Assembly: GCA_016744995.1 (NCBI GenBank)
Contig: JADGDG010000004.1
Coordinates: 186,001 to 250,000, forward strand
Source of the DNA: Gammaproteobacteria bacterium
GTDB taxonomy: Bacteria > Pseudomonadota > Gammaproteobacteria > GRL18
DNA: 64,000 bases
Direction of reading: 5' to 3'
The position numbers and the translations under genes are program-made. Below are positions 45,244-64,000 of this stretch, one piece after another (positions within the stretch are counted from its first letter, which is position 1; each line of letters begins with the position of its first letter). The notes under the pieces are model-generated. The model saw nothing but the letters and a program-made list of their open reading frames with translations. It made no database searches and was not told the origin of the DNA.

Positions 45244-46968
<1,725 letters not shown>

Positions 46969-46969
46969 A

Positions 46970-47170
46970 TCAACCACCTTGTATATTATCGGGGGGCTGG
47001 AGCGCTTCTAGGTACATGCGGTAATCTTCTTCCGCTGCGCGCCTTGCCAGAAATCTAACGAGAGCAGTAATGCGCTCATCATAAGAGTCTAGATTATGAC
47101 TCCGTTTCTGGTGGCAATGCAAACCAACCACCCCGTTATTTTTATGATTTAACTTTAAGAATTCGTTCAT
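46970..47170 (-). CDS. Small protein upstream of the recombinase
   Basis: A 66-residue basic/helical protein ending one base before the recombinase ATG (TGATATG), so clearly co-translated. The segment YDERITALVRFLARRAAEEDYRMYLEA resembles small helical proteins I recall next to serine recombinases of other elements. It may be a recombination directionality or accessory factor, but that is inference from position. Confidence 0.6.
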   Translation of the reverse strand: MNEFLKLNHKNNGVVGLHCHQKRSHNLDSYDERITALVRFLARRAAEEDYRMYLEALQPPDNIQGG

Positions 47171-47465
47171 AACAAAATCCCAAGAAAAGAAGCGAGAGCA
47201 TAAAATCGCCCCCGCTTCAAAATTATTGCGTTAAAGTTGTATTTTGAGGGTGAGTATGCCGTGGGCGCTTTTACGTGTGTAGGGCATACAAACATACAAT
47301 TCGTGCAATAAAAAAGAGTGCTGGAAAATAAATTTCCCATAAGCACCCTCTCACTATCTATGGTAAGCCTAAAATTATTAACAAATAGTAAAGAGGTGCT
47401 ATAAAAACCGCAGGTTTCTGCGGTTATTTTTATTTTTTCTAATGTTTGTAGTAAGTTATGCATGA
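47171..47465 (-). other. Noncoding interval between recombinase and membrane-protein operon
   Basis: Apart from the terminator hairpin listed separately, it contains an imperfect hairpin around 47312-47353 with the stem GGAAA/TTTCC. An open frame crossing this stretch overlaps the terminator and looks fortuitous. Confidence 0.4.
47400..47437 (-). terminator. Bidirectional terminator after the island operon
   Basis: AACCGCAG and CTGCGGTT form a perfect 8-bp stem with loop GTTT. T-rich tracts lie on both sides (TTTTTAT on the minus strand, ATTTTTATTTTTT on the plus strand). It is placed to end the minus-strand operon whose last gene stops at 47466. Confidence 0.8.
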
Positions 47466-47879
47466 TTATTTTATCCCTTTTATAGTCAAGCGAATGGTAA
47501 ATATTGCTCCAATAATTGAACCCATCCACCATCCAATATGCGAAATAGAGAGCTGTTTTAATATTGCAATCACGGCGAGCAGGACGAGTGCCATGGAGCT
47601 GTGCTCCAAGATATTTGGCCGTAATATGTCTTTTTGCGTGCGATGCTCACCGCGACTTAAAATCGGGGTTGATTGGCGATTACTGAGCATACGCCGCCAG
47701 ATAAAATTCTGGTGCCATGATTTTGTAGAGGCAAATAAAAGCACCCAAGGCGAAATCAGATAGAAATAATATAGCCAATCCCTTGTGGAGTAGGCAGGTA
47801 TAGCTTGGCTTAGCGCTCCATATGCTCCATAGGCACAGGCTAAAAGAATAATAATATTGAACCATCTACGTATAATCAT
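47466..47879 (-). CDS. Membrane protein of unknown function
   Basis: A 137-residue protein with probably four helices (about 5-25, 36-53, 93-110 and 115-133) around a basic loop (SWHQNFIWRRMLSNRQSTPILSRGEHRTQKD). I recognise no family. It is the last gene of the operon and starts two bases after the coupling-protein-like gene stops, so a partnership with it is likely. Confidence 0.6.
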   Translation of the reverse strand: MIIRRWFNIIILLACAYGAYGALSQAIPAYSTRDWLYYFYLISPWVLLFASTKSWHQNFIWRRMLSNRQSTPILSRGEHRTQKDILRPNILEHSSMALVLLAVIAILKQLSISHIGWWMGSIIGAIFTIRLTIKGIK

Positions 47880-47881
47880 AA

Positions 47882-49492: not shown

Positions 49493-50510
49493 GATTCCTC
49501 CCTTGGCAGCTATGCACATTCAGAACTTTTTGAGATTTATAGGCCTTACTTATAGCATCAAAATATTGTGAAAGAGATTTGCTAACATCACCGCCTTTAG
49601 AAATAAAATGATCTGTCAGTTCTTCCAGATCATCTTTTTTATTACCGCCGATGAAATACACGAAGGTTAGAATATCTTTCTTCAGCCCCAATAATTCTTG
49701 GCGAAGGGCTTCATCATTCAGCGTGTAACCATCGGTGATGATAATTACCGCTTTTTGGTAGTTATTAAAATATGAGCCGGATAAAGTTGTATAAACATCT
49801 TTTAATGGCGTAAAAATATCTGTGCCACCACCTGCCTTAATCGTCTCAAACCCAAACCCGCCACCAGAGCATGATTGATAGTTTGTATGACCATATGTAA
49901 GGGTGGTATTAAAACTACCAACCGCGCATTCGGCAGAAGCAGGAAGGATGCTTAAAAAATCCTGGGCAGAGTTTTTAACCTTGCTGATATTACCAGCCAT
50001 GGAACCAGAGCGATCCAAAAGAATGGCAATACCCATTTTAGGAGCGGACATCTTTGCAGTTTCATAAGAAAAGCAAAGCTTTTCACCGCTTGTGCTATAA
50101 ACAGCAAGGCTATCTGCTGGCGGTGATATGAAATTACCATTTTTATCTTTAAAACTGCTGATAACCTGCAAGCCATTAGGAGAGCGAGCAGCTTTTATTA
50201 TTTCCGATGTGCCGCCGCTGTAAGCAACAACAAGATTATTTTGAAGATCGATATCAAAGCCTGATTTTATCTCTATGCCATGCGCATCACTCATACCGAT
50301 TTTTGAGAGCGTAGTGATTAAAATATCAGAAACGCTTAGTTTCGGATCGGTTTTGACTTTAAGTGATATCTCCTGCTCAAAGTCGTATTTACTTTGAATA
50401 ATGATGACAGGGGCGCGCTGCTGCGTGCGATCAATTATGCTGATCTGCGCAGCCACCCCGAAGGGTGCTGCCATCATAATGATGGCAGCATATAGCTTAG
50501 TGAGTTTCAT
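49479..50510 (-). CDS. Secreted von Willebrand factor A-domain protein
   Basis: From the ATG after GGAGAG the product has 343 residues, with a signal peptide (MKLTKLYAAIIMMAAPFGVAA) and an N-terminal region of about 140 residues with no known match. The VWA domain then begins MGIAILLDRSGSMAGNISKVKNSAQDFLS, with the MIDAS DxSxS. GGGTDIFTPLKDVYTTL supplies the MIDAS Thr, and IIITDGYTLNDEAL follows. VWA domains bind protein partners through a metal ion. The gene lies between a lipoprotein and the coupling ATPase in one operon, which points to an envelope complex, but the role is unknown. Confidence 0.8.
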   Translation of the reverse strand: MKLTKLYAAIIMMAAPFGVAAQISIIDRTQQRAPVIIIQSKYDFEQEISLKVKTDPKLSVSDILITTLSKIGMSDAHGIEIKSGFDIDLQNNLVVAYSGGTSEIIKAARSPNGLQVISSFKDKNGNFISPPADSLAVYSTSGEKLCFSYETAKMSAPKMGIAILLDRSGSMAGNISKVKNSAQDFLSILPASAECAVGSFNTTLTYGHTNYQSCSGGGFGFETIKAGGGTDIFTPLKDVYTTLSGSYFNNYQKAVIIITDGYTLNDEALRQELLGLKKDILTFVYFIGGNKKDDLEELTDHFISKGGDVSKSLSQYFDAISKAYKSQKVLNVHSCQGRNHANP

Positions 50511-50523
50511 AATTCTCTCCTTC

Positions 50524-51204
50524 TTATAATAAGTCTGAAAGATTGGATTTTGTCTGGGCAGTGCCCAGTAGGGAAAAATCAAGCGTTCCATTTCTTGCGC
50601 GCTTTAATATCCCATGCGATCCTAGATAGGCTTGTAAGATCTGATCCTGGTCGGGATGAACGCGCATTATCTTTAGAACGCTGAGCTGATCTGCAAATGA
50701 TGGTAATGCTAGATCATCAGGAACGGCCTGCGGGACTTCTACCTTTATTTCACTATCAGTGCTCTGGAATGGCACGTGAATAGTTGTCCCAATCCAGTAC
50801 AGGCGAATATCATCAGGCTGGGTAAGTTTGATAGTTGTCTCAATTTCCTCAAAGGCCATTACCAGATCAGAAAATGAAGGCTTGAAGGCAATAAGATCTC
50901 TTACATCTTTAGCTTGCGCCAATAACTGGCGCGGTGTGCCTGACCATGCAATGCGATTAGGCAGCGCGCTTAAGATGATTTGAATTTGCGTATTGCGCGT
51001 TGCCTTGCGGCGATCCAGCTTAGTAAGTTGCTGGAAAAGGTGAAAAGCAGTATTTAGGGCATCTTCCTGCTCCTCTTCTGGCACAGTGCCCCCATTTTCG
51101 AATAGAACAAATATGGATTGGGACTGTGGCTTTTCATTTGTTTCTGGCCTGTCACCGCAGGCACTTAGAAACAACGCTATAAACATGAAAGTAATAATTT
51201 TCAT
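50524..51204 (-). CDS. Putative lipoprotein
   Basis: A 226-residue protein with a lipoprotein signal (MKIITFMFIALFLSAC, lipobox LSAC, Cys16). The mature part looks alpha/beta (ATRNTQIQIILSALPNRIAWSGTPRQLLAQAKDVRDLIAF, DIRLYWIGTTIHVPF) and resembles secreted VWA-like folds by eye, although a MIDAS motif is absent. It sits 13 bases before the VWA gene and is probably its partner. No family recognised. Confidence 0.6.
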   Translation of the reverse strand: MKIITFMFIALFLSACGDRPETNEKPQSQSIFVLFENGGTVPEEEQEDALNTAFHLFQQLTKLDRRKATRNTQIQIILSALPNRIAWSGTPRQLLAQAKDVRDLIAFKPSFSDLVMAFEEIETTIKLTQPDDIRLYWIGTTIHVPFQSTDSEIKVEVPQAVPDDLALPSFADQLSVLKIMRVHPDQDQILQAYLGSHGILKRARNGTLDFSLLGTAQTKSNLSDLL

Positions 51205-51209
51205 TTCAG

Positions 51210-51803
51210 CTACTCCTGTGTGGTTTTAAGGCTTCGAATTGAACGAATACTGAATAGCGCCAGTACTATATTAATTACCGCTACAACTGCGCTGACAGCT
51301 ATTGCCATGCCTTTGTTCTGCGCTAAATATCCCATCAATCCGTTATCTTGCGTTTGCACAAAGACGAATTCCATGTCCTCACGAGCTATAAGGGTATATA
51401 AATTTACAACCTCTAACCCGATAACCAGAAATAAAATCAATCCAGTAAATACTGCGATGATTTGATTTTGTGGATGAGAAAACCAGTCTTGTGGATCATC
51501 CATAATCTTTTGGCGGAAAACTTCAGACCAGATGAATAATGGCGTCCCAACTGAGAACGTGGCCATGAGCATCGAAATGATGTGCGAGGCATTAGCATCA
51601 GGATCAAGTACGCCAAACACAGCTCCAATAATGGGCAGCTCTGAAAGAAAGGTATCATTCATGATCCCAATGGTTTCGGTGTAAACAGCGTAGAACATGG
51701 TGAACATCCCAGATTCTAAAATAAAGCAAAAAAGCACTGCCACAACGGCTGAGAAGCTTAGGCTAGATATTCCTTCAAACGGTGAAGATTCATCAAAGTT
51801 CAT
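51210..51803 (-). CDS. Four-helix membrane protein of unknown function
   Basis: A 197-residue inner-membrane protein with predicted helices at about 15-38, 70-88, 110-131 and 162-184. The hydrophilic loops are acidic. I recognise no domain. It ends five bases before the lipoprotein gene and overlaps the upstream small gene by four bases (ATGA-type), so it is an integral member of the operon. Confidence 0.6.
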   Translation of the reverse strand: MNFDESSPFEGISSLSFSAVVAVLFCFILESGMFTMFYAVYTETIGIMNDTFLSELPIIGAVFGVLDPDANASHIISMLMATFSVGTPLFIWSEVFRQKIMDDPQDWFSHPQNQIIAVFTGLILFLVIGLEVVNLYTLIAREDMEFVFVQTQDNGLMGYLAQNKGMAIAVSAVVAVINIVLALFSIRSIRSLKTTQE

Positions 51804-51997
51804 GATCTTGCCTCCTTACATTGTTTGAGTAAGGCATTCATACAGCCATGCTTGTAGCATCGTGGGTCAGTGCAGCTTTCCCATTGCTCACAAAACACAA
51901 GCCCAAGTTCTGGTTCAGGTGGGGATGGTGGCTCATAAACGGGATCATTTGCCGCTTCGAGCGCTATATTGATGGTAATATGTGTATAATCAGACAT
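51800..51997 (-). CDS. Small Cys-rich protein
   Basis: A 65-residue protein with a Pro/Glu linker (YEPPSPPEPELG) and a C-terminal CEQWESCTDPRCYKHGCMNALLKQC containing five or six Cys plus His, a possible metal-binding knuckle. It is the first gene of the minus-strand operon and overlaps the next by four bases. No family recognised; GGAGGC lies upstream of the ATG. Confidence 0.55.
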   Translation of the reverse strand: MSDYTHITINIALEAANDPVYEPPSPPEPELGLVFCEQWESCTDPRCYKHGCMNALLKQCKEARS

Positions 51998-52127
51998 TTA
52001 AAGCCTCCTTGCCCTGATAGACACAGGGCAATCAAATTATAAGAACGATATTTTCGTTTAAGAGGCTTTGCGCAAAGCTTGTAATCAATAATATAGGGTG
52101 CAGAATAATTGATAAAGGTCGGAAGCA

Positions 52128-52200
52128 TACTCAAGTAAAGAATAATGCTTTCTAGTCAAGAATATGGTTTAATGAATGTCTTCTAGTCAAGAATAATGTC
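52128..52200 (+). promoter_or_regulatory. Direct repeats between the divergent island operons
   Basis: TCTAGTCAAGAATA occurs at 52151-52164 and again at 52182-52195 (31-bp period). A diverged copy, TCAAGTAAAGAATA, lies at 52131-52144. They sit directly before the plus-strand regulator-like gene and 130-200 bases upstream of the minus-strand operon, a natural place for a shared regulator to bind. Confidence 0.55.
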
Positions 52201-52216
52201 AAAGAGACCCTGTTAA

Positions 52217-53116
52217 GTGAGTAAATCCTATCGATTAAAAAATGTGTATTGTAAAAATACGAAGTTATCTGAAGAAGAGTTTTCTCAGGTTGTTTGGGAC
52301 TATTGCGGTTTCGTGCCTGCGTCGGTTTGCGCTGAGGGAGTAGGAAGGTCTCGTCAAACGGTGCAAGGACTTTACTCCAAATTAGGCGAAAGATTGACTT
52401 ACATGTTTGAATGCAATGACTTTCCTAACTTTTCAAGCTCTATTGCAATTGAGATGATGGAGGATGAAAAATTACTTAGGCATATTCTTAGCATATGGAT
52501 CACGCCAAAAGTGTATGAACTGTGCTTGATATATGAATATGACCCTCTCCCTGATAAAGGGAAACATCAAAATTCAGTTATAGTTAAAAGGACTGAAACA
52601 GCCTCATTCCTTATTCGTATTTTTGATCATCATGGCGAAATAATAGATTATTATGAAATTCCTGATTGTTTGATCATGGAACTAGAAAATGAGTTTCGAG
52701 AGCCTTCAAAGGGATATGAAAGTCAAAAAGAGTTCATTGAAAAAATTATGTCTGCTCTATGTTATACGCAGTCAGATATAATGATTTATGATGAGTTAGT
52801 GCCAAAGTTTAGCTATGAAGCATATAAAGATTATCGAAATAGAGGGGTTGTGCTAAATCCAAATAATACTACTGTATATAACTCTCGATACAGAATAATT
52901 AACTACATGATTAGAACAGAAAAATTCACGAGAGGTTTCTCTAAGAAAAAATATTTAAATTATTTTTCTCGTGCTCGGTTACTGGAGTTGATGATTTTTA
53001 TGTGTTCATGGGCGCAAAGGAAACATAATGCATTAAAAAATAAAGAAATTAAGGAATACGCACGTGATGTGTCTTATATTCTAATTATGCTTTCGCTCAG
53101 ATACAGGCCACTGTAA
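52217..53116 (+). CDS. Unknown protein, possible HTH regulator
   Basis: A 299-residue protein starting at GTG. Near residues 22-58, FSQVVWDYCGFVPASVCAEGVGRSRQTVQGLYSKLGERL has the look of a helix-turn-helix (ACAEGVGRSRQTVQGLY pattern). The rest is mixed alpha/beta with many aromatic residues, and I recognise no domain. It is divergent from the VWA/TraG-like operon with the direct repeats between them, so it may regulate that operon. Low GC relative to that operon. Confidence 0.6.
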   Translation: MSKSYRLKNVYCKNTKLSEEEFSQVVWDYCGFVPASVCAEGVGRSRQTVQGLYSKLGERLTYMFECNDFPNFSSSIAIEMMEDEKLLRHILSIWITPKVYELCLIYEYDPLPDKGKHQNSVIVKRTETASFLIRIFDHHGEIIDYYEIPDCLIMELENEFREPSKGYESQKEFIEKIMSALCYTQSDIMIYDELVPKFSYEAYKDYRNRGVVLNPNNTTVYNSRYRIINYMIRTEKFTRGFSKKKYLNYFSRARLLELMIFMCSWAQRKHNALKNKEIKEYARDVSYILIMLSLRYRPL

Positions 53117-53152
53117 TTAGGCAATCAATAAATGCATCAAGGTCAAATTACG

Positions 53153-53425
53153 CTATAGACATAATGAGTCAGAATTTATGAGCTTGGGTTTTTCTCTAGG
53201 GGTATTGTCCAAATCACATTGTTCGTTTTTGCCAAGTGCTTCATGAGTAAATTTACATATATGCAAATGTAGTAATTTTCTATTCTGGTCGAATGGCTCT
53301 TTACTTATAGAATTAAGATAATTGTTTATATCTGCTATTTCGGCTCTTTCTTCTTCCATCAAATCACCAGAAAATAGACTACTTACATCCTTTGAAAATT
53401 TTACCTTATCGATTCCGTTGGTCAT
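53153..53425 (-). CDS. Small hypothetical protein
   Basis: A 90-residue hydrophilic protein (MTNGIDKVKFSKDVSSLFSGDLMEEERAEIADINNYLNSI...), probably helical, with no recognised family. It is convergent with the 299-residue gene. The composition is protein-like, but there is no supporting context; an ATG 18 bases upstream is an alternative start. Confidence 0.4.
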   Translation of the reverse strand: MTNGIDKVKFSKDVSSLFSGDLMEEERAEIADINNYLNSISKEPFDQNRKLLHLHICKFTHEALGKNEQCDLDNTPREKPKLINSDSLCL

Positions 53426-53457
53426 CCATAACCTACCTTCCATATATTATGGGTATC

Positions 53458-53538
53458 ACAAAAACATAAATGGCTTCAATAAAAATGAAATATTACGTAA
53501 TGGTAAACGCTATTTTTTGAAGCCATTTATGTTTTTGT
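53458..53538. repeat. 22-bp perfect inverted repeat at the decayed integrase end
   Basis: The arms at 53458-53479 (ACAAAAACATAAATGGCTTC + AA) and 53517-53538 are perfect reverse complements separated by 37 bases. The right arm overlaps the last codons of the integrase remnant. It would form a very stable hairpin; a relic attachment site or a terminator for converging genes are both possible. Confidence 0.85.
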
Positions 53539-53768
53539 TCCAAGCTAGGCCCTTCGCCATAGCGGGGTCGATCATATTTATGCCCTATTAAAGCCGCCTG
53601 TACTTTATCCGGCGGCTCCACAGCAGTAAGCCTGTCTTCGAAGCTATGCCGAAGGCTATATAGGCTATGCTCGATGGATATATGAGAATATCTGATGAAG
53701 GAGTTTAGCTTGGATTGATATAATATATCATGCAATATATATTGGATTAAGGAATAGAAATTACTCAA
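53493..53768 (-). pseudogene. Tyrosine integrase remnant (C-terminal part)
   Basis: The 91-residue frame ends with SLYSLRHSFEDRLTAVEPPDKVQAALIGHKYDRPRYGEGPSLEQKHKWLQKIAF. This matches the end of tyrosine recombinases: HSLRHSF..R, then LIGHK and the nucleophile Tyr in RYGEG. The catalytic core upstream (first Arg and Lys) is missing and the first 30 residues look unrelated, so this is a truncated relic of an earlier integrated element. It is distinct from the intact integrase 2 kb to the right. Confidence 0.75.
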
Positions 53769-53981
53769 TTGAGAATGCTATTTTCTGAAGCTATCCCCTG
53801 CTTTTCTAGATTATCTACATCAGAAAAATATTTAAAAATCAATAAAAAACGATAAAGGTTACATCATAAACGCATTGCTAATAATCATTTTTCACAAATA
53901 TAGTTATATAAAATCATTATTCACAAAAATTGCTGAATATAATTAAAATTCATAAACAATAACCGTTTTTCAAGATTATCT

Positions 53982-55247
53982 TTATTCTCCAATAGAATAT
54001 GGATTTAAAAACTGCCGTCCCCAGAACAATTTTCTATCGATCTCACTAAGCTGGGCTTCGTTACATACAGTATCCCAGTTTGTTTCTATAGCTTGCTTTT
54101 GTTTTTCAAAAATTGCGCGCGCATCTTGTTCAGAAATAAGGAAAGAGTGTGCAGCTTCTAGGCAAGTTTTTAACTGACTTAGATTATTATTGCCTGATAT
54201 TTGCATCGCATGTGAAGCTTCATTGCCAGAGCGTCCTTGAGGGCATATATCATATGCAGGAGTAAGGCTTAGATCTTGACCATTCCAAAACGCTGCGTGA
54301 TTACGGGCGTGATCATCCGTATTGCCGCAAAGCACATTGAAGGTAAGGCGAGAGAATAACTCTATCAATGCGTCTTTTGGATCGGTAAAACGATAACGAA
54401 TAATTTCAGCCAAAGTTTCATAGCTTGCGTAGCGCGCCATCATGTCATCAAGGGCAAAGAGAGTTAGTGCGGATACCATTGATTTGCGCGTCCAGCCCTG
54501 CTTGGTTTTCTCACGGTCAAATCGTTCGACAAGTAATACATCTCGATTTGCTGCGGTTTCCAGTTTAACGGGTGCAACATTAAGCCCAACAATATCTGCC
54601 AATCTCATGGCGATAAATTCAGCTTTTACTACGCTGTATATGTCAGTGCTGGAAGAAAATTTAGCGACGTATTTTCTATTATTATCTTCCACTAGAGCTT
54701 TCGGTCTTGCACCGCCAATGGCCGTACCATGGTACAAGGCAATATCAAGTTCTGGGGTGAGTGGAACACCTTTTTCAACACGCGCCGCAGAATCCAATAG
54801 TTCTTCGAGAGCAACATTGGTCGCGCTACGCGGTTCATAATGGGAGGGTGATTGTTGAAAATCCAATGCACCGATACGATCAGAACCTGACTCTAATAAA
54901 TAAGTCAGTTCATCAAGAGCCGTTGTATCTGTATCCGCACCTTTCATTCCCAGCTTTTTATTGATAATTACGCGCCGCCCCCAAGCATCAGGCGCACCGT
55001 CACGAATACAGCCGGGCATGCTTAATCCATCAAGAAGTGGCAATGTTCCAGCCTCTAAGGGCAATTCAGGCTCATAAATAGGAATAGCTGGTATTGTGTC
55101 ATTGACCCGCTCAAGATAGCTTTTACCGTAGTTGAACAATAGATTACCGTTATCAGTTTCCAGCTTTCCTGCTACAACTGGTTCGGTTTCATTCGGTAGC
55201 CATATCCAGACATAAGCTTCGCTGTATTGATTATCAGAAGTCATCAT
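53982..55247 (-). CDS. HipA-family kinase toxin (second copy)
   Basis: The 421-residue protein has the couple-HipA N-terminal domain (VWIWLPNETEPVVAGKLE...). The kinase region follows, with GLSMPGCIRDGAPDAWGRRVI, the ATP-loop GTAIGGARPKALVE, the catalytic NTDDHARNHAAFW and the metal site LTPAYDICPQGRSG. It is only distantly similar to the HipA at 0.7-2.0 kb and belongs to a different subfamily. Its start overlaps the antitoxin stop by 14 bases. All active-site residues appear intact. Confidence 0.88.
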   Translation of the reverse strand: MMTSDNQYSEAYVWIWLPNETEPVVAGKLETDNGNLLFNYGKSYLERVNDTIPAIPIYEPELPLEAGTLPLLDGLSMPGCIRDGAPDAWGRRVIINKKLGMKGADTDTTALDELTYLLESGSDRIGALDFQQSPSHYEPRSATNVALEELLDSAARVEKGVPLTPELDIALYHGTAIGGARPKALVEDNNRKYVAKFSSSTDIYSVVKAEFIAMRLADIVGLNVAPVKLETAANRDVLLVERFDREKTKQGWTRKSMVSALTLFALDDMMARYASYETLAEIIRYRFTDPKDALIELFSRLTFNVLCGNTDDHARNHAAFWNGQDLSLTPAYDICPQGRSGNEASHAMQISGNNNLSQLKTCLEAAHSFLISEQDARAIFEKQKQAIETNWDTVCNEAQLSEIDRKLFWGRQFLNPYSIGE

Positions 55248-55566
55248 GCACTACCTTTGTTTTTGACTTGATACGTTTAGGGAGCAAGGCAACTTTATCT
55301 TTTGTTTGTTCTATTTGACGTGAGAGAGGGAAATTATTATGTTCGAACAGATTTATGCCCACGAGGGTCGCGACCTCAAAAACTAGGCCAATTACACAAT
55401 TCATTTCGCCATTTTCGATTTTCTGTAAGGTCGCTCTGGAAATGCCAGCACGCTCCGACAGATTTTTCTCGCTCCATTTACGTTGTTTGCGCCCAAGCTT
55501 AATCTGTTCTCCGAGCAAGGCGATAGCTTCTAAGGCATATTTTGAATAAGTTCTTTGCTTTGTCAT
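55234..55566 (-). CDS. HipB-like Xre antitoxin (second copy)
   Basis: A 110-residue protein with an Xre HTH over about residues 10-70 (ALLGEQIKLGRKQRKWSEKNLSERAGISRATLQKIENGEMNCVIGLVFEVATLVGINLF) and a basic C-terminal tail. It is coupled to the following HipA gene. Five palindromes of the AATGA-N2-CATT type lie just upstream, probably its own operators. Confidence 0.85.
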   Translation of the reverse strand: MTKQRTYSKYALEAIALLGEQIKLGRKQRKWSEKNLSERAGISRATLQKIENGEMNCVIGLVFEVATLVGINLFEHNNFPLSRQIEQTKDKVALLPKRIKSKTKVVHDDF

Positions 55567-55594
55567 GGTGACTTTTCTTCCAAATGTCTAGTTT

Positions 55595-55720
55595 AGTGAT
55601 CATTAAGGTATGTAATGACCATTACTATAGTCAAAATTAACAGTAAATTTGTATGGAGTCAAGTTGAATGACTATTTTAGCAGTCATAATGGGCTTAATG
55701 ATCATTTTAATGGTCAATTA
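55595..55720 (-). promoter_or_regulatory. Operator cluster before the second hipBA
   Basis: Related dyads occur at 55595-55606 (AGTGATCATTAA), 55612-55625 (GTAATGACCATTAC), 55668-55687 (ATGACT-N8-AGTCAT), 55697-55706 (AATGATCATT) and 55707-55720 (TTAATGGTCAATTA). All share ATGAYCAT-type half-sites. They fill the interval between the antitoxin start and the integrase end, so binding should repress hipBA; the last site overlaps the integrase stop. Confidence 0.65.
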
Positions 55721-57046
55721 TAATAATCCTGAATTCTTTACTCTTGTTCTTAATTCTTCAAGAGTAGGTATGTCCTTTGGCGTTTCGCAAGTCACAATCT
55801 GATCCAAGATAAATTCCCATACTTGTGCGGCACGGCGTTTCTCGAAGTCATAGGAATATTGAATGTAAACTTCGCCTGTAACATCTCTTTCACCATCGCT
55901 GTGATTGAGTATGAGCCGAGCATAGAGTTTTGGAAGTCCAACAGCAGTAATCCATGTTGCACCAGTGCGGCGCAAATCATGGGGGCAAAAATCTGAGATA
56001 TCTAATGCTTTACGATTTTTGCGAATAGCTTGGGGCATGGCGGTAATGCCCAATGGAATTAATTCTGGATTAGGTTTTTTTGGTGGAGACATGGCGCGTG
56101 TCGCACCAAAGATATACGGTGATGCAATTGTATAAGGCGCAACTTCTTCTATAAGCTCCAGAGCGTAACGGTTCAATGGTACGCGGTGCATGGTTTTATT
56201 TTTTGTTTCGTGCATTTCCATTTGCCAAACATTTTCGTCTGGCTTAAATGCGCCATAGCGCATATTGCGCACCTCAACACTGCGCTGCATTGTCACCAAT
56301 GCAAATTTGAGTGCTTTAGCGGTAACAGGGGGAACGCTAAGCATTTCAAACCTGTTCCAGAATTTCCAAATTTCTTCAAAGCTTAAAATTCGACTTCTTG
56401 ATCCTGATGCACCTAAAGATTCAATTTCCATGACAGGGTTATTTTCAATCAATCTTTTTTTCTTCGCTAAATTGAAAAGCTGCCTTGTATAGGCAAGGCT
56501 ATTTTTAACAGCAACTTTACCACTGCGAGAAGCATTTACTGTTTTTTTAGCACGTTTCAAAATACGAGATTGCATTTTGTCAATATCATCGGCAGTGACT
56601 TCATTAATGTTTTTATTTCCCATGATAGGGATCACATCGAGGTTAAAGACACGCACTTCTTCTTTAATCGATGCTTTGCCTTTTAAGTTTGCATATTCGA
56701 TATACACAGCGATAAATGCTGATACGGAGTAGGTAGCTTTTCTCTTTTCTTCTTCGGCTTTTTTATCTGCTACCGGATCACGACCATATTGATAAACTTG
56801 TTCGTAAAGCTCGTCATACTCTTTTCGGGCTTGTCTAATAGTCCACTCTGGATATTTTCCAATTGATATCCATCGGCTTATTTCTTTATTTTCTCCACTC
56901 ATATATTTAAAAACAAATACTTTTGATCCGCTTGGATTGACGCGAATACCAAATCCGGGGCAACCATAACACCAAAATGTTTGGCGTTTTGTTATAGGTT
57001 TAATATTTCTAACCACTGTATCAAGAAACTTTATTGTGTTTGACAT
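55718..57046 (-). CDS. Tyrosine-type site-specific integrase
   Basis: The 442-residue protein has the arm-binding DUF4102-like N terminus (GCPGFGIRVNPSGSKVFVFKYM...SIGKYPEWTIRQARKEYDEL), a SAM-like core-binding domain (about 110-200) and the catalytic domain: Arg in MQRSVEVRNM, Lys in HETKNKTMHRVPL, HDLRRTGATW, LNHSD and the nucleophile Tyr in VYIQYSYDFEKRRAAQ. All catalytic residues are visible. A likely attachment site with a tRNA-Lys core lies 250 bases upstream of its start codon. It belongs to the class that inserts into tRNA genes. Confidence 0.93.
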   Translation of the reverse strand: MSNTIKFLDTVVRNIKPITKRQTFWCYGCPGFGIRVNPSGSKVFVFKYMSGENKEISRWISIGKYPEWTIRQARKEYDELYEQVYQYGRDPVADKKAEEEKRKATYSVSAFIAVYIEYANLKGKASIKEEVRVFNLDVIPIMGNKNINEVTADDIDKMQSRILKRAKKTVNASRSGKVAVKNSLAYTRQLFNLAKKKRLIENNPVMEIESLGASGSRSRILSFEEIWKFWNRFEMLSVPPVTAKALKFALVTMQRSVEVRNMRYGAFKPDENVWQMEMHETKNKTMHRVPLNRYALELIEEVAPYTIASPYIFGATRAMSPPKKPNPELIPLGITAMPQAIRKNRKALDISDFCPHDLRRTGATWITAVGLPKLYARLILNHSDGERDVTGEVYIQYSYDFEKRRAAQVWEFILDQIVTCETPKDIPTLEELRTRVKNSGLL

Positions 57047-57076
57047 CCATGTTCTTTCTGGTATTACGTAAAGCTG

Positions 57077-57437
57077 CTGGCTACTTGGCTGGCTACTTGG
57101 CTGGCTACTTGAGATATGCTTCCTAAATGAGCAGAATAAGCAACTATGAGCAAGAAAAAATCTTTACAACTCTTTGTGAGTAACGGTTACATGGGTTTGT
57201 ATTTTAAGGGGATGTAAAATTTTATAATTAAATCAAAGCAGTAACTTATAACCCTTACTCAGTCTACGTTACAGCGGTTAAAATTGCGTTAAAGCTACTG
57301 ACTTTTAATCAGTAGGTCGAGGGTTCGAATCCCTCAGCGATCACCACTTTTCTCTCAATTATTACAATGCTTTATCTGACATATTAAAAATCATAAAAAT
57401 CGCAAAATTACCCCTAGCTACTTGGCTGGCTACTTGA
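57077..57437 (+). other. Candidate unsplit attP: repeats flanking a tRNA-Lys core
   Basis: Three tandem 12-bp units (CTGGCTACTTGG) lie at 57077-57111 and two more in the same orientation at 57414-57437. Between them lies the 3' half of a tRNA-Lys gene. This is the layout of a lambda-type attP: arm-type integrase sites on both sides of a core identical to the target. The adjacent tyrosine integrase and AlpA-like gene support it. A chance arrangement of a displaced attR is the alternative. Confidence 0.6.
57293..57346 (+). other. 3' fragment of tRNA-Lys (TTT), no 5' half
   Basis: The anticodon arm ACTGA-CTTTTAA-TCAGT (anticodon TTT, 57304-57306), a T arm GAGGG-TTCGAAT-CCCTC, the acceptor 3' strand AGCGATC and CCA are all present. 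The matching 5' acceptor strand (GATCGCT) and a D arm are absent upstream. It cannot make a working tRNA and is best read as the crossover core of an attachment site. Confidence 0.8.
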
Positions 57438-57497
57438 AACAAAATCGGGAATTATCCCGATTTATTATGCTTCACAATTATTGTGGATAACTTTGCA

Positions 57498-57773
57498 CTA
57501 ATCCGATTGGAGGTACATATGAGGATTTTTAATCCAATCATGCAGGTCTTTAAGGTGGAAGGCTTTTCGTATGGAGTTTTTTCGTCGAGACAATTTGTGA
57601 GGTTTTGGAAATGTGCCCCGCGCAATTCTGCGGTTAATCTCTTGCCGCGATATACCGCAAAGTCGTACAGCTAGTTTTATGGGTATTAATGCATTGCTTT
57701 GGATCATTAAAGCCGCTGTCACTTGTGCTTCAAATTCTGCTTTGATACTTTTTTCGCTAATAATATTGTTCAT
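57498..57773 (-). CDS. AlpA-like transcriptional/excision factor
   Basis: A 91-residue protein with the AlpA/excisionase MerR-like winged helix in its second half: IPIKLAVRLCGISRQEINRRIARGTFPKPHKLSRRKNSIRKAFHLKDLHDWIKN. AlpA proteins regulate integrase expression or act as directionality factors on tRNA-integrated islands. It sits on the other side of the attP-like region from the integrase and is read in the same direction, toward it. Confidence 0.85.
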   Translation of the reverse strand: MNNIISEKSIKAEFEAQVTAALMIQSNALIPIKLAVRLCGISRQEINRRIARGTFPKPHKLSRRKNSIRKAFHLKDLHDWIKNPHMYLQSD

Positions 57774-58129
57774 GGTGCGATTCCTTATCGTTAATAGATA
57801 TGGCTGTCAGCCACAACTATATTAAAAAGCACCCATTGAATTAAAAATACCAGTTCTCAGATCGAAATGGCAGGAGAAGACTGGAGTGTTTATTCCGTAC
57901 TTATATTACACAGTAAATCAATTAATATTCAGTTAACACTTACTGCAAAGTTATTTCTCAGAATGGTGTTTTATTGTGTTTTCTATTTAGGAATTTACGT
58001 CCTTGCAGAGATATTCCATCAAGTTTTCTAGCTTTGAATGCCGATCTGCCAGATTTTTTCTAACAGTAAATTTGCATTATTTTTAAAGAGGTGATATCAG
58101 AATTTGAGAAATAAAAGAAAGCCAACTGA
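57774..58129. other. Noncoding interval upstream of the zinc-protease-like gene
   Basis: AT-rich sequence without a convincing gene. A strong GAGGTGAT ribosome-binding-like sequence at 58089-58096 is not followed by a start codon in the frame of the next gene. An out-of-frame TTG (58105) with a short frame (RNKRKPTDCSVKY) follows it, suggesting that the next gene has lost its true start through a frameshift near 58130. Confidence 0.45.
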
Positions 58130-59167
58130 TTGCTCGGTAAAATATTAAAAGGAACTGCCCAATCCGCAGGAGCTTTGACGCTTGCGTTTGAAGTGGCGTT
58201 GTTCAATATGCCATATCTGGTTTCCTCTACAGTCGAGGAGTATATGGAAGATAATGAAATTCCCCTTGAACTAATCAAGAGGGTCAGGACGGATGATATG
58301 CGAGTTTATGACGAGCATAGCCACCTTGCAGCACTTCATTTGGCTTCTTTTTTATTTTGGAACAATGCAAAGAACATAGATTTTCTGTGGGCTTTTGTTG
58401 ACCCTCTAAGTTCTATTCCAGAGATGTATGGTGATATGGCAAGCCTTCACGCCGCAAATGGTAAGTGTATGGTTTATATGCCAGATCTAGATCGAAATGT
58501 TGATGAAATGATTAGCCTTTCCTCTGGTATTCCGAAAGATGATTTAGAACTTTCTCCAAAAATCATCGACACTTTCCGAGCTAATATCCTAATCCATGAA
58601 ATAGGACATGCTCAACCTCTGGCAATGAATGAACAGGAATACTGTGAGCGTAGCCAAATACCAACTTATAAAAAATCAGCATACTACTCAAAACATGTAC
58701 TCCCACTTTATATGGAATTAAGAAGTGATGATTTTTCGCTTGAGCGGATGAATGACAGTGATATTACTGATTACATTATCGCTTTTAGAGCAGTTACTGA
58801 ATTTAACAGAGTAAATAATGTGTCTCATGATACAAGCCTATTTCTGGATGAATGGTTTAATAAAAAAAGCATGAGTATTCGCAATGAAATACCAGATCAC
58901 CAAAAGCATAAGGAACAACTCGTTTCTATACTTACTCCATACATTGAACGCTATAGTTCTGAACAAGTTAAACCATACCAAATTTATAAGGCAGCACTTG
59001 ATTTTCTTGATGATGAAAAAGTAAGCGGAAAAGTATCATATTCTATGCGACGTATAACAGAGCTTTTCGTTGAAGGACTTGAATATTTAGCACCAACAAA
59101 GGCCAACCTGCTTCGTATGGACAGATCACGCCAGAAACCATTGAGCGAGACGGCTCCATCCGTCTAA
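58130..59167 (+). CDS. Putative zinc metalloprotease-like protein
   Basis: Read from TTG, the frame gives 345 residues. ANILIHEIGHAQPLAMNEQEYC near residue 157 holds an HExxH motif (HEIGH), and a downstream Glu/Asp-rich segment (YMELRSDDFSLERMND) could give the third zinc ligand, so a zincin-type peptidase is likely. The N terminus LGKILKGTAQSAGALTLAFEV is hydrophobic. No family recognised. The TTG follows a TGA directly and lacks a ribosome binding site; an in-frame ATG at 58208, or a frameshifted start upstream, are alternatives. Confidence 0.55.
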   Translation: MLGKILKGTAQSAGALTLAFEVALFNMPYLVSSTVEEYMEDNEIPLELIKRVRTDDMRVYDEHSHLAALHLASFLFWNNAKNIDFLWAFVDPLSSIPEMYGDMASLHAANGKCMVYMPDLDRNVDEMISLSSGIPKDDLELSPKIIDTFRANILIHEIGHAQPLAMNEQEYCERSQIPTYKKSAYYSKHVLPLYMELRSDDFSLERMNDSDITDYIIAFRAVTEFNRVNNVSHDTSLFLDEWFNKKSMSIRNEIPDHQKHKEQLVSILTPYIERYSSEQVKPYQIYKAALDFLDDEKVSGKVSYSMRRITELFVEGLEYLAPTKANLLRMDRSRQKPLSETAPSV

Positions 59168-59213
59168 GAGCGATGTGTAAATAGATGCCCTTTCATCAAC
59201 CCCTAAACGTGGC

Positions 59214-59310
59214 GGGGGGTATAGTGATAGGTCGCACAGTTCCGATTTCTGACCACACTTACCACTAAGAACACAGGCAACCGCTATCTTCACGGGTAGC
59301 GGTTGTTTTA
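59214..59310 (+). repeat. Left inverted-repeat arm of the cassette
   Basis: It runs from GGGGGGTATAGTGATAGG to a stem-loop AACCGCTA-N10-TAGCGGTT followed by GTTTTA, which could also terminate the zinc-protease-like transcript. The reverse complement recurs at 61246-61335. Confidence 0.85.
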
Positions 59311-59401
59311 TGATTAAAGGTATATCGTAGGGGTTAAATCGATTTAATTCTTTTAATCAATTCTTCTGTTTTATTAATATTGTTCCCCGTCAGGTCTTAT
59401 G

Positions 59402-59549
59402 AGACCAAATAAAGGTCTTGCATAGCCGCGAGGCTTGGACATACATCGCCGCCTCCCGATCACAGATCGAGAAGCGGCATCATTGCGGCTGATGCCAGCC
59501 GCTTAGCGCAGGGTTTGAAAGCCCCGATTGCTAGCTCAATTACTAGCAA
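59402..59549 (+). ncRNA. GC-rich multi-hairpin leader, possible structured RNA
   Basis: Four hairpins fall within 150 bases: AGACC/GGTCT (59402-59418), GCCGC/GCGGC (59448-59478), GGCATCA/TGATGCC (59476-59496) and TTGCTAG/CTAGCAA (59528-59549). The second competes with an alternative pairing of AAGCGG (59472-59477) with CCGCTT (59499-59504), a switch-like arrangement. The stretch is much richer in GC than its surroundings and lies inside the cassette, 110 bases before its gene. No known RNA family recognised. Confidence 0.45.
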
Positions 59550-59660
59550 CGATCTAAAAGTAGAGGTATTTCTCTTGAGGATCAAGAAGTTAATATCTGG
59601 CCAAATACTTCAAAATGCTTTATTAAAGAAAAGGTTATACAGCGATAGAATAGGTAGATC

Positions 59661-61226
59661 ATGACCGATAATTATTTAGAAGATTTTACAGAGCCAACAC
59701 CACTCGTACTTGTCAGAATTAAGGGCAGTTGGGCTTTTTTACCTTTTGAAACAAAAGTTAAGATTTTGAAAGCCCTTTTAAATATTGACGGAAAAGGCGA
59801 AACGAAACTCCAATATATGTATCAGGTAAATGAGTTGAAGGATTTAGCCCTAAATGATGAGAATCCATATATCAGGTATCTTATTGCCCAAACAATTTCA
59901 AAACCATTTATATGGGGGGATAGAGAGGAAACCGATGAAGACCGTGAAGATGAAGCGCGGTACCAAAAAGTCCTGTCAGATAAAAGCGAACTTGTTCGCT
60001 CAGCAGTAAACGGGAGGATAAGGTTAACGGCTGATAATGAAACTGCCAAGCATTTTTGGTCTTTATCTCATGCAGAACGATTTATGCTTGTTTCCTCTAA
60101 TAGTAAGCTGCTGTTTGACCTAAAAGGTGAGGCTATTGCTAAAATATTAGAATACGCGGCAACAAAACTTTTGCCGAAGAAAAAAGTTTCTACACAAGAA
60201 ATAATGGATGTTATTCAACAGTTCATTTATGACATTAAAGAAAGTGTTTGTAGCATAGAAACACACATAAGCGAGGGCGTTTGTCCAGATACTGACATGC
60301 AACTTGGGGAAGACATGGAAGCCCTTTGGAAAACAGCTTTTTTGCTTCCTGACGAACTTGGTTTTGATTTAATAGAAAACCTGCCCATAAAAGCTGGTTT
60401 TATGTCAGAGATTCCTATCGGTGATGCAAAAAAAATATCAGAACCAAAGTTGTGCCATCTTTTTGGGCGTGATGATGTGGGGCTAAACGAATTACGACGG
60501 AAATTTTATACTGAAAAACCAAGCAAAAAAAATAAGAACCTCCGTGATGCTGCAATATTTTCTCTGTCATTTAAACTAGATGATGATGACTTCAAAAAAT
60601 TGACCCTCAAGGACGAAGATAGTAAGAAAGAAGGAAAGCGAAAACTCGAAGAACTAAGAATGCTTGCAATCTTTTGTAGTGGGGCAACATTGGCACAAAT
60701 GGAAGCCATTATTGGCCTTATAAAAGATATGCCAGATGAATATTTCTCTGGTTATAACGATTGTAGCGATAGTTATGATGATGTTGTATCTGCTCGTGAA
60801 CGTCAAGAATATAGAGTAAGTAAATTAGGAGAGAATCTTTTTGCAGAAGAGCTATTGGATTGGAGGATTTATGCGCTTGCGTCTTCCCTAACGAATGGGT
60901 ATACGTCAAGTGCTGTTGATTTTCTTAAAAGTGATGTTGTGTCCGGTGACCGTTGGGCTACCTACCTAAAAATACGCCCAAAAGTGATAAGCGAGCCAAA
61001 ACTCCATTCAAAGCTGTCCGTATTAAGGCTAGGTGACAAAACATATCCAGCTATGGAAGATGAAGTAGATAATTATGAAGATGAAAAAGACGATATAGCC
61101 GCAAACACGCCCGATCCAACACCTTCATGGCAGCCGCATTTTAAAGTTTTGGAAAAGAAAATTAAGACCATATTTTGGATTACAATCGCTATTTTGGTAA
61201 TAGTCATTGCACAGTCTTCAATTTAG
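59661..61226 (+). CDS. Helical-repeat protein with C-terminal membrane anchor
   Basis: The 521-residue cargo of the cassette. Residues 50-120 read like HEAT-type helical pairs (ELKDLALNDENPYIRYLIAQTISKP, ...YQKVLSDKSELVRSAVNGRI), and more charged helices follow to about 450. A single hydrophobic segment near the end (IFWITIAILVIVIAQSSI) would anchor it with the bulk in the cytoplasm. No catalytic motif or family recognised. It stops 19 bases before the right arm. Such lone, anchored helical-repeat cargo genes can be defence or regulatory factors, but nothing here proves it. Confidence 0.7.
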   Translation: MTDNYLEDFTEPTPLVLVRIKGSWAFLPFETKVKILKALLNIDGKGETKLQYMYQVNELKDLALNDENPYIRYLIAQTISKPFIWGDREETDEDREDEARYQKVLSDKSELVRSAVNGRIRLTADNETAKHFWSLSHAERFMLVSSNSKLLFDLKGEAIAKILEYAATKLLPKKKVSTQEIMDVIQQFIYDIKESVCSIETHISEGVCPDTDMQLGEDMEALWKTAFLLPDELGFDLIENLPIKAGFMSEIPIGDAKKISEPKLCHLFGRDDVGLNELRRKFYTEKPSKKNKNLRDAAIFSLSFKLDDDDFKKLTLKDEDSKKEGKRKLEELRMLAIFCSGATLAQMEAIIGLIKDMPDEYFSGYNDCSDSYDDVVSARERQEYRVSKLGENLFAEELLDWRIYALASSLTNGYTSSAVDFLKSDVVSGDRWATYLKIRPKVISEPKLHSKLSVLRLGDKTYPAMEDEVDNYEDEKDDIAANTPDPTPSWQPHFKVLEKKIKTIFWITIAILVIVIAQSSI

Positions 61227-61245
61227 GAATCCTTTACCTTCTCAC

Positions 61246-61335
61246 TAAAACAACCGCTACCAGTTATGATAGTGGTTGCCTGTGTTCTTAGTGGTAAGTG
61301 TGGTCAGAAATCGGAACTGTGCGACCTATCACTAT
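61246..61335 (-). repeat. Right inverted-repeat arm of the cassette
   Basis: Reverse complement of the left arm, with the stem-loop CAACCGCTA-N10-TAGTGGTTG near its inner end. It is cut at CTAT by the IS3-family insertion; the missing tip (ACCCCCC) resumes after a second CTAT at 62974. Confidence 0.85.
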
Positions 61336-61374
61336 CGGAAGGTGTCAAGGAAGTTGTCATGTGAAATTTTCAAA

Positions 61375-62379
61375 TCATGCTGCAATTTTCACTTCCTTTT
61401 CACGTTTACTTTTATCAGGATTAAGGCTTACCGAAGAAATATGCTTCCAATTTCTAGTGTTCCTAGACCAACGCTGTGGATTTAAAGATTTAGCTTTTAA
61501 ATAAATATAATTACGTTTTTCTAATATTTCAATATCCATACCTGAGTGGCGCTGGTTCGGCGTTACAAATGAGATTGCACTGTGTAAATGCTCATTGTTA
61601 TACCAATTCACAAAGCCCTCAACCCAATTTCGTGCTTGCTCCAAAGATTTAAATTGCTTGCAGGGGTATTTATGGTGATATTTCAGGGTTTTAAATATAC
61701 TTTCGGAATAAGGGTTATCATTGCTTACAGCTGGCCTGCTGAATGATGTAACAACGCCCAGTTTCTGCAAGGTTGCAAGCATAGTAGCGCCTTTCATCGG
61801 CGAGCCATTATCTGAATGTAGCGTGACCTGATGCTTTAAAAGCTCTTCACGCGCGCAAATATCTACCATCAAATCGGCGGCCAAATCAGCGCTTTCAGAC
61901 CTGTGAATCTGCCAGCCAACAATTTTACGTGAATACACATCCATCACCAGATATAGGTATAAAAATATGCCGCGCACATCAGTTGGAAGATACGTAATAT
62001 CCCATGAATAAACCTGATTAGGCGCAGAGGCCACGAGTTCCTTAGGTTTAATAACCTTGCGTCCAGCCCTTGATTTGTTGCGGTGCTTTAGCTGGTTTGC
62101 TGCTTTTAATATGCGATAAAAACTGGCTTCAGAAGCAATATAAGTGCCCTCATCAGCAAGCATGGGAACTATTTTCTTTGGCGGTAAATTGGCAAATCTT
62201 TTTTCATTAGAAATCTTTAAAATGCGCTGCACTTCAAACTCACTAAGTTTATTGGCAGGAATGGGATTATTATGCACGCGCCGATCTTCAGTATTTTTAG
62301 AGCTTTTCCAGCGCTGCCACGTGCGTAAACATACTCCCAAAACTTCACATATATTTGCTTGCCGCGCGCCTGCTAGCAT
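61375..62379 (-). CDS. IS3-family transposase OrfB (DDE catalytic part)
   Basis: The catalytic rve domain has the DDE triad: Asp in SWDITYLPT, Asp in LHSDNGSPM and Glu in NPYSESIFKTLKYH, followed by FVNWYNNEHLHSAI. An N-terminal HTH_21-like region precedes it. From the first ATG it is 334 residues, but the frame extends upstream (GFKGRGRLSSKADRAAIKASIEKA) to the slippery run in orfA, so the active product is probably an OrfAB fusion made by -1 frameshifting at eight A residues (complement of 62466-62473). Confidence 0.93.
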   Translation of the reverse strand: MLAGARQANICEVLGVCLRTWQRWKSSKNTEDRRVHNNPIPANKLSEFEVQRILKISNEKRFANLPPKKIVPMLADEGTYIASEASFYRILKAANQLKHRNKSRAGRKVIKPKELVASAPNQVYSWDITYLPTDVRGIFLYLYLVMDVYSRKIVGWQIHRSESADLAADLMVDICAREELLKHQVTLHSDNGSPMKGATMLATLQKLGVVTSFSRPAVSNDNPYSESIFKTLKYHHKYPCKQFKSLEQARNWVEGFVNWYNNEHLHSAISFVTPNQRHSGMDIEILEKRNYIYLKAKSLNPQRWSRNTRNWKHISSVSLNPDKSKREKEVKIAA

Positions 62380-62426
62380 CGCTTTTTCAATACTGGCTTT
62401 TATAGCAGCTCGATCAGCTTTGCTGC

Positions 62427-62918
62427 TTAATCTTCCTCGTCCCTTGAACCCCAGATTTCCTCTACTTTTTTTTGGAGAACAAGTAAGGCAGCAGTCTCGG
62501 CCAAGGCCTTATCCTTGCGGCGTAGCTCTTTCTTTAATTTCTTATTTTCTTCACGCAAAGCCCGCATTTCCGCCTTGTCTGGGTTAGTGTTTGTGCTAGC
62601 CATATCAGCCTTCCATTGCTCTATATGGTGCTTGTATAGACCATTGCGACGGCAATAGGAATTAAGATTTTCTTCCGTTAAAGAGCCCGATTCAATAAGC
62701 ACTTGAAGCTTTTCGGCCGTGTTCCAATCCTGGGGGCGCTTTTCTGAAGCCGTATTCTTTATAAAACCAGATTTGCGCGATTTTTCAATCCAATGATATA
62801 GGGTTCCGCTCGCTACACCTATATCATTGCATACTTTATCCATGCTGACACCATTGCCACGAGTTAATGCTTTTTCTATTGCGCGTTTCTTGAATGTTTC
62901 ACTGTATTTCTTACTCAT
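62427..62918 (-). CDS. IS3-family transposase OrfA (HTH protein)
   Basis: A 163-residue protein with the HTH_Tnp_1 domain (KYSETFKKRAIEKALTRGNGVSMDKVCNDIGVASGTLYHWIEKSRKSGF) and a C-terminal leucine-zipper-like helix (EMRALREENKKLKKELRRKDKALAETAALLVLQKKVEE). Both are typical of IS3 OrfA. The A8 slippery run near its 3' end would shift ribosomes into orfB. ATG is followed by a Ser-Lys-Lys start as in relatives. Confidence 0.92.
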   Translation of the reverse strand: MSKKYSETFKKRAIEKALTRGNGVSMDKVCNDIGVASGTLYHWIEKSRKSGFIKNTASEKRPQDWNTAEKLQVLIESGSLTEENLNSYCRRNGLYKHHIEQWKADMASTNTNPDKAEMRALREENKKLKKELRRKDKALAETAALLVLQKKVEEIWGSRDEED

Positions 62919-62973
62919 ATACGTTGTCTCCTGTTAATTTTAGTTTAGGTGACAACTACCCTGACACAGGGGG

Positions 62974-63218
62974 CTATACCCCCCTAAACGTGGCGGGGGA
63001 AATTTTCACTTTCTGAGAGAACTATCTGTTCGTATTGATAAACACATAGTGAATAATTATTTTGTTATAGAGATGAATATATTATTCTGAAGGGTGATGT
63101 AAATAACTGAAGCTCATGAGCTGGCTGGTAATTACACATTTCATCTTTATAATGAACTCTCAATACAGCATGGATACCACATGTAAGTTTCTATACTGAA
63201 AAAAGAAGAATTGGTTTC
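62974..63218. other. Outer right cassette end and noncoding spacer
   Basis: It holds the resumed arm tip (CTATACCCCCC), the second direct copy of the 19-bp sequence and about 220 bases of AT-rich DNA before the endonuclease-like gene. Nothing else is recognisable. Confidence 0.5.
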
Positions 63219-64000
63219 ATGGCTAAACATTTCACAGATGCACAATGGCAAAAGATAAGTGCCCTGAATGCTCAATCCGCTGATAATTTTGACCTTCCCG
63301 AACGCAGATCCGATTCCGTTATTATTGGCAGTTTTAATATTCGCAAGCTCGGCTCAGTTTCTAATCGAACGGCGCAAAGTTGGGAGTTCCTCAGAAACAC
63401 CATTGCTCGATTTGATCTGATCGCCATACAGGAAATCATGGATGATTTATCAGGCCTTGAACATTTACTTGAATTGTTAGGCGATGATTATGGCATGGTC
63501 GTTTCTGATGTAACTGGTGCGAAGCCAGGTGCGAGAGGCAATACCGAGCGTCTTGGTTATCTCTTTAATTGGAAGCGGGTTAAACGCACAGCCTTGGCCA
63601 GTGACATTACCTTTGATCGATCTGAGATTGCGAATAATCTTTATGATAATCGCACGTCCTTTTCCAAAGCATGGTCGAAGCATTGGCATAAGATCAAAGA
63701 CTGGAAAATAAAGTTAGAGAAAAAAAGGCACAAGGAAAAAAACCGCCTACAAAACCACCAATATAACTTCCCAAGTTTGTCAGTTTTATTCGCCAGCCCC
63801 ATTGCGTTTCTTTTCACATCAAAGGCGCGGCAAATGCCAAGCCATTCGAATTGCTGGTGGTTAATGCTCATCTTCTATACGGCAAGAATAAGCATGAGCG
63901 TGAATGGGAATTTAGATCACTTCTCGAATGGCTGACTATTCGCGCGAAATATGTCGATAATCTTTACCATCCCAATCTCATGTTGCTGGGTGATTGTAAT
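63219..64000 (+). pseudogene. Endonuclease/exonuclease/phosphatase-family gene, frameshifted and cut by the window end
   Basis: The first frame shows the EEP fold start: SVIIGSFNIRKLGS with the metal-site Asn, FDLIAIQEI with the catalytic Glu, and LGDDYGMVVSDVTG. After about residue 170 the frame becomes non-homologous, while another frame continues the domain (FVSFIRQPHCV..., FELLVVNAHLLYGKN, YHPNLMLLGDCN) to the window edge. A seven-A run near 63734 and a stop at about 63759 in the second frame imply at least two lesions. EEP proteins cleave phosphodiester or phosphomonoester bonds; this copy is probably inactive unless the lesions are sequencing errors. Confidence 0.75.

Follow-up and report, generated by a model that had tools for sequence, protein, structure and literature searches.

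An apparently intact tyrosine-integrase attP within a putative integrative mobilizable element that a large serine recombinase probably placed in tRNA-fMet

One integrase and one attB are usually taken to set the bounds of an integrating element's host range. Elements of the SXT/R391 type, for their part, integrate at the 5' end of prfC. Several described elements carry more than one integrase. The tripartite ICEs of Mesorhizobium have several integrases, each with its own att sites, acting on one circular element, and in the account given in PMC8627217 every att pair is split and the element is divided into three pieces. The Frankia AICE Fcci3390 has two different integrase genes, two att pairs at a single locus and a permuted gene order, and both integrases are described as tyrosine-type, with att pairs that are nested rather than used as alternatives (available text of PMC3218068). 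Two integrase genes per element are also reported for ICEHpa1 (PMC7438473, which mentions prfC as an ICE integration site as well) and for some ICEclc relatives (PMC10732049); in both cases the integrases are described as related, and the available parts of these papers describe no unsplit second attP. Here we describe a site in a gammaproteobacterial genome that we take, with a probability of roughly 0.84, to be the intact attP of a tyrosine integrase, which would share one integrative mobilizable element (IME) with a second integration system.

Within the window, which is the whole 64-kb stretch of DNA that was analysed, same-strand copies of the 12-bp repeat CTGGCTACTTGG lie on either side of a 53-nt 3' tRNA-Lys fragment at 57077-57437, three on the integrase side and two on the far side. 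The site and its neighbours are as follows:

55718..57046, minus strand: int1, tyrosine integrase of 442 aa (Arm-DNA-bind_3 and Phage_integrase domains; alignment of relatives)
57077..57112, plus strand: integrase-side arm repeats, three tandem 12-bp copies (sequence and shuffles; kept in relatives)
57294..57346, plus strand: attP core, a tRNA-Lys(TTT) gene fragment (its 3' 53 nt) that is foreign to the host
57414..57437, plus strand: far-side arm repeats, two tandem 12-bp copies (sequence and shuffles; kept in relatives)
57498..57773, minus strand: putative excision factor, a small HTH protein that is AlpA-like in its position (weak Pfam match)

The integrase-side copies at 57077-57088 and 57089-57100 are exact and that at 57101-57112 has A as its last base, while on the far side the copy at 57414-57425 starts with CTAG and that at 57426-57437 again ends in A. 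When up to one mismatch is allowed, CTGGCTACTTGG has five matches in the window, all of them at this site, and 100 dinucleotide shuffles of the window gave a mean of 0.31 and at most 2; at up to two mismatches six matches were observed against 4.0 expected, a count that alone is not unusual. In the whole genome the tandem arrangement is confined to this site. The fragment is matched by the Rfam tRNA model at 35.5 bits (57276-57335), ARAGORN makes no tRNA gene call at 57294-57346, and the RNA folding of the fragment is unremarkable (z -1.94). Both tRNA-Lys genes found in the source genome match the core poorly (37/53 and 32/53), and so the core is not derived from either of them; the 81-bp core region has a single full match in this draft assembly of 95.8% completeness. 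A core formed by a tRNA 3' end with arm repeats on both sides is the arrangement of an arm-binding tyrosine integrase with a tRNA attP, and by its layout 57077-57437 is a predicted unsplit attP in which arms and core are contiguous. At G000:C35:62903-65974 (L009) there is in addition a second, tightly packed group of divergent tRNA genes (Leu, Gln, His, Lys, Asn and Ile), which may be of phage origin.

The original prediction had placed an unsplit set of 12-bp repeats around a tRNA-Lys core, and this was borne out, as the copies were located and in relatives, too, the core lies between both arms. The comparison of the core with the host tRNA-Lys genes that it had proposed gave 37/53 at best, with no second full copy of the 81-bp region, and the proposed alignment with related integrase regions found repeats on both arms there too. 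A matching second element end with a tRNA-Lys, which it had named as the outcome that would speak against it, was not found elsewhere in the genome.

The integrase adjoining the site had been predicted to be intact, and int1 is indeed an uninterrupted ORF of 442 aa with both an arm-binding domain (Arm-DNA-bind_3) and a catalytic domain (Phage_integrase). The neighbouring AlpA-like factor stood in part: the small HTH gene at 57498-57773 holds the same position in relatives, but its match to Pfam AlpA reaches 16.6 bits against a curated cut-off of 21, which leaves it outside the family. Between the window and the relative at L036, 117 of the 1,326 positions compared in int1 differ, with dN 0.022 and dS 0.434 (NG86), values from which int1 is judged to be under purifying selection. 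The L036 locus itself (L036:9850-14615) has an int1 that is 96% identical and one arm set, without core or alpA, and lies about 3 kb from a tRNA-fMet; it is probably what decay has left of an insertion of this kind. With a near-identical integrase, a single arm set and the core absent, it indicates that the int1 module can decay.

The DNA around the site has its own ends and its own recombinase:

45244..45320, plus strand: tRNA-fMet, the target used (ARAGORN calls Met (CAT); the f is from the sequence and the original prediction)
45277..46977, minus strand: large serine recombinase of 566 aa, ORF end inside tRNA-fMet (Resolvase, Recombinase and Zn_ribbon_recom domains)
45308..45321, plus strand: left element end, 14-bp repeat at the tRNA-fMet 3' end (partner at extended coordinate 83005)
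45308..64000, no strand: window part of the 37.7-kb element (end repeats)
47882..49519, minus strand: VirD4/TraG-type coupling protein (domains; conserved beside the serine recombinase)
49479..51803, minus strand: VWA-domain protein and two further conserved proteins (domains, relatives)
53982..55566, minus strand: HipA-like kinase and HTH partner, cargo (domains)

The 14-bp repeat GCCCCCGCTACCAA at 45308 has an identical copy 37,697 bp further on, at extended coordinate 83005 (C23:269005), beyond the window. The element of 37.7 kb bounded in this way is inserted in tRNA-fMet and encloses int1 and the unsplit attP, and its two flanks are contiguous in two genomes of the same genus (G107 and G227), which thus present the empty site. 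Resolvase, Recombinase and zinc-ribbon domains together with short direct repeats at the ends are the make-up of a large serine recombinase system. As read from these sequences, the neighbourhood is one 37.7-kb element that would have been inserted in tRNA-fMet by the large serine recombinase.

As expected of an IME, the element has its own integrase and delimited ends (the serine recombinase, the 14-bp ends and the empty site) and its own relaxase, which lies at the far end of the element and matches PF03432 at 53.6 bits against a cut-off of 24.6, beside a MobC-like gene named by eye. No mating-pore genes were found among the ORFs scanned, which are part of those of the 37.7-kb element. Pfam identifies as cargo a type I restriction-modification set, a GmrSD/AlbA-domain protein, AbiH and ArdA, in addition to HipA with its HTH partner. 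An insertion sequence with two ORFs bearing rve and HTH_Tnp_1 domains lies inside the element at 61375-62918. At 63219-63935, and also at L051:851-1417, two overlapping ORFs in different frames resemble by eye one broken nuclease-type gene.

The serine recombinase ORF crosses its own att core (45277-45320; L039:16841-18718; L041 from 18424 onward), so that its C terminus depends on the integration state. In tRNA-fMet the final residues are encoded by the tRNA (566 aa in the window), and across unsplit or computed junctions the protein has another tail. A similar motif, QRYL followed by AFDIA or a close variant, occurs in six of eight aligned rows, and the tails of the window and L045 are short and different. 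In L038 and L040 the serine end adjoins the 3' half of tRNA-fMet alone (L082:11973 and 9473; L084:15837), the 5' half being replaced by other DNA, in L040 next to another tyrosine integrase (by eye); judging from these two loci, the tRNA-fMet site appears to be a hotspot where elements have stacked.

A scan of genome contigs for int1 relatives gave 15 loci. Those in which the integrase start was unmatched or off the contig (L042, L045, L047, L048, L049 and L050) were left out of the count of split and unsplit sites, for which 11 loci were examined: nine of the 15 (L036-L041, L043, L044 and L046), together with L088 and the window. The genomes of the relatives are drafts, most of them metagenome bins, and L044, which repeats L041 upstream, was not counted as independent. 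An unsplit attP, with both arm sets around a tRNA fragment, is present in six of the 11 (the window, L037, L038, L040, L046 and L088). In four (L039, L041, L043 and L044) a single arm set is followed by the fragment and beyond it by other DNA, and the remaining locus, L036, has one arm set without a core. The core fragments stem from different tRNAs, Lys or Arg (anticodons read by eye, with which ARAGORN agrees where an intact partner was found), and a varying tRNA origin is the behaviour expected of an attP core.

A second integration system stands at the element end in five of the six unsplit loci, with both ends seen in four of those five. Serine repeats are found at both ends in the window, L038 and L040 (in L040 with one mismatch), and at one end in L037, where the contig stops. 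L088 is inserted in prfC, as confirmed by NCBIfam; each of its ends has a 14-bp repeat, and one end also carries int2, a second tyrosine integrase. The sixth locus, L046, has an unsplit attP, and the 29.6-kb contig on which it lies yielded no second system. At L045:600-1340 an integrase without a start follows directly on a serine recombinase end, an unsplit serine attP and a MobC-like start, which makes the locus either a deletion remnant or a misassembly. An alphaproteobacterial bin (G004) has three close copies of the serine recombinase (C2:28051, 212424 and 795375; L076, L077 and L080), all with an unsplit serine attP, and two of these sit in elements without int1.

The reciprocal state was found among the relatives. 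At one end of L041 (G006) there are an intact tRNA-Arg(TCT), an arm pair and alpA, and at the other end a tRNA fragment, an arm pair and int1, the two ends sharing 58 identical bases; in the interior the serine recombinase gene, without any tRNA-fMet, continues through TTGGTAGCGGGGGC towards the MobC-like and relaxase genes. By this arrangement L041 is an element with a predicted unsplit serine attP, integrated by int1 at tRNA-Arg. In L039 a tyrosine end and an unsplit serine attP are present at the one end that is readable and seen; its likely partner is a tRNA-Lys, matching at 52/53, at the very end of another contig. In L043 (G007), int1 is split at tRNA-Arg(CCG) with both tyrosine ends seen, so that attL and attR at an intact tRNA are available from both ends in this locus and in L041. 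The int2 of L043 is 96% identical to that of L088 and its prfC-type attP is contiguous, which makes L088 and L043 the same swap with a different second integrase, the prfC site being used in L088 and unsplit in L043. All three independent loci in which int1 is split (L041, L039 and L043) therefore have the attP of the other system unsplit; the serine site of L044 is cut by the contig end. In the region upstream of L043:10001-11308, the tRNA-Arg fragment beside int1 has on its other side an ORF end that resembles by eye the C terminus of another serine recombinase.

Where it can be read (the window, L037, L038, L039 and L041), the circular order is the same: alpA, attP, int1, VWA, coupling protein, serine recombinase, serine attP, MobC, relaxase, cargo. 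The order of L037 is readable up to the tRNA, where its sequence ends, and no alpA was found near L039. In L040 the serine block is turned round with respect to the alpA-int1 cassette, and modules can thus be shuffled. For the serine system, the junctions computed from the ends of the window, L038 and L040 can be aligned with those of five loci in which the site is naturally unsplit (L039, L041, L045, L077 and L080), and the tyrosine attP computed from L041 and L043 aligns with six natural unsplit sites. Over six elements the identities of int1 and of the serine recombinase correlate with r 0.73, a value reached by 11 of 720 permutations; this fits joint inheritance but is in part explained by host group. 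The original prediction had the tyrosine element, if its site was unsplit, enter the chromosome by another route, for example carried as a circle by the serine recombinase at tRNA-fMet. That route is supported by the ends and the empty sites; the part that did not hold is the separate passenger, as the tyrosine module appears to be half of one element, given the relatives with the same circular gene order that are integrated through the tyrosine system.

On the preferred reading, the element would excise as a circle on which both attP sites are present, and this circle would integrate into the next host through whichever system finds its target there. In the present host the serine system would have been the one used, leaving the tyrosine system whole inside the element. 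The best surviving alternative is a one-off fusion, in which a serine element took up the circle of a tyrosine-integrase element, whose integration module has since been carried along inert. Modules do move, as seen in the orientation of L040, the core loss in L036 and the second system that varies between elements, but the reciprocal state in L041, L039 and L043, the purifying selection on int1 and the correlation of the two recombinases all argue against it, and we judge such a fusion improbable. It could also be supposed that the attP was regenerated between two tandem copies or related elements at one tRNA-Lys, since arrays regenerate such junctions and tandem accretion is described in the available text of PMC5357655 and PMC3218068; we reject this as very improbable, because the genome is without a second core or int1 and it is tRNA-fMet repeats that bound the unit on the outside. 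That the site is the simple attR of an ordinary tyrosine-integrase island, with far repeats by chance, can be dismissed as scarcely credible, for although one arm set and a fragment are what an attR looks like in L039 and L041, in six of the 11 loci the far repeats are present next to the same small HTH gene, the DNA past them is still within the serine-bounded element, and no tRNA-Lys attL was found elsewhere in the genome. A nested split insertion was also considered and is ruled out, there being no second core in the genome.

With two systems on one element, as the preferred reading has it, the match between core and host tRNA may bear on which system is used. Where the element is integrated by the serine system, the core matches the cognate tRNA of the host at 37/53 in the window, 44/53 in L038 and 40/53 in L040 (70-83%; all three readable hosts), while in the three hosts integrated by int1 it matches at 53/53 in L041, 52/53 in L039 and 50/53 in L043 (94-100%). 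Only the low values are informative, because a match is expected after int1 has been used. For L037 and L088 a host match to the core was sought and none was found besides the element itself. The poor match of the host tRNA-Lys to the tyrosine core makes a fallback role plausible, and these comparisons suggest, without proving, that the second system serves when the host tRNA mismatches the core. The same pattern would result from survivorship if rearrangements are caused by an unsplit attP that stands next to a tRNA matching it. More broadly, and tentatively, since we hold it to be possible with the balance somewhat against it, there may be a class of mobilizable elements that combine a narrow, tRNA-matching tyrosine system with a second system of broader or different target as a fallback, in which the resident unsplit attP stays loaded for re-targeting or a multipartite state. 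The targets of the second system would then be the conserved 3' end of tRNA-fMet for a serine recombinase, or prfC for a tyrosine integrase, and the unsplit attP would be a loaded site able to re-target the element, or make it multipartite, in a matching host.

Against plasmids, blastn with the integrase region gave 11 records, each covering 3-4% of the query over the tRNA fragment, and int1 had no match there at E 1e-60; the serine recombinase had 29 plasmid records, all below 60% identity. In IMG/VR no relatives of int1 were found, and the serine recombinase had one, at 41%. Among the genomes drawn, int1 is present in one of 369 from the class (E 1e-100) and one of 398 from the phylum (E 1e-110), and the core tRNA-Lys, at up to three mismatches, in one of the 369 class genomes; each time it is the source genome itself.

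Elements with two unrelated systems, found naturally in both states, make it testable whether integration specificity limits spread, and relatives inserted through either system hint at how mobile genes reach hosts without the usual landing site. Two-system elements are also a plausible starting point for multipartite ICEs, and one element here offers natural attP/attB pairs for two recombinases.

Among described systems, the single-integrase IMEs of PMC5704250 are alike in having a relaxase and a coupling protein, no conjugation pore among the scanned ORFs and integration at a gene end; from what that paper describes, the present element differs in its two complete integration systems of unrelated families. 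With the tripartite ICEs it shares several integrases with their own att sites, but here one att pair is split and the other attP is whole. The likeness to Fcci3390 lies in the two integrases and permuted order, and the difference in their families and in alternative use. As with SXT/R391, the second integrase of L088 and L043 has its core in the 5' end of prfC; the likeness is by site alone, and in these loci the prfC integrase is the partner of int1. A family of elements with serine and tyrosine systems in both alternative states was not found in the available text of the open-licence literature searched. Multi-integrase elements are thus already known, and it is the reciprocal integration states that are new.
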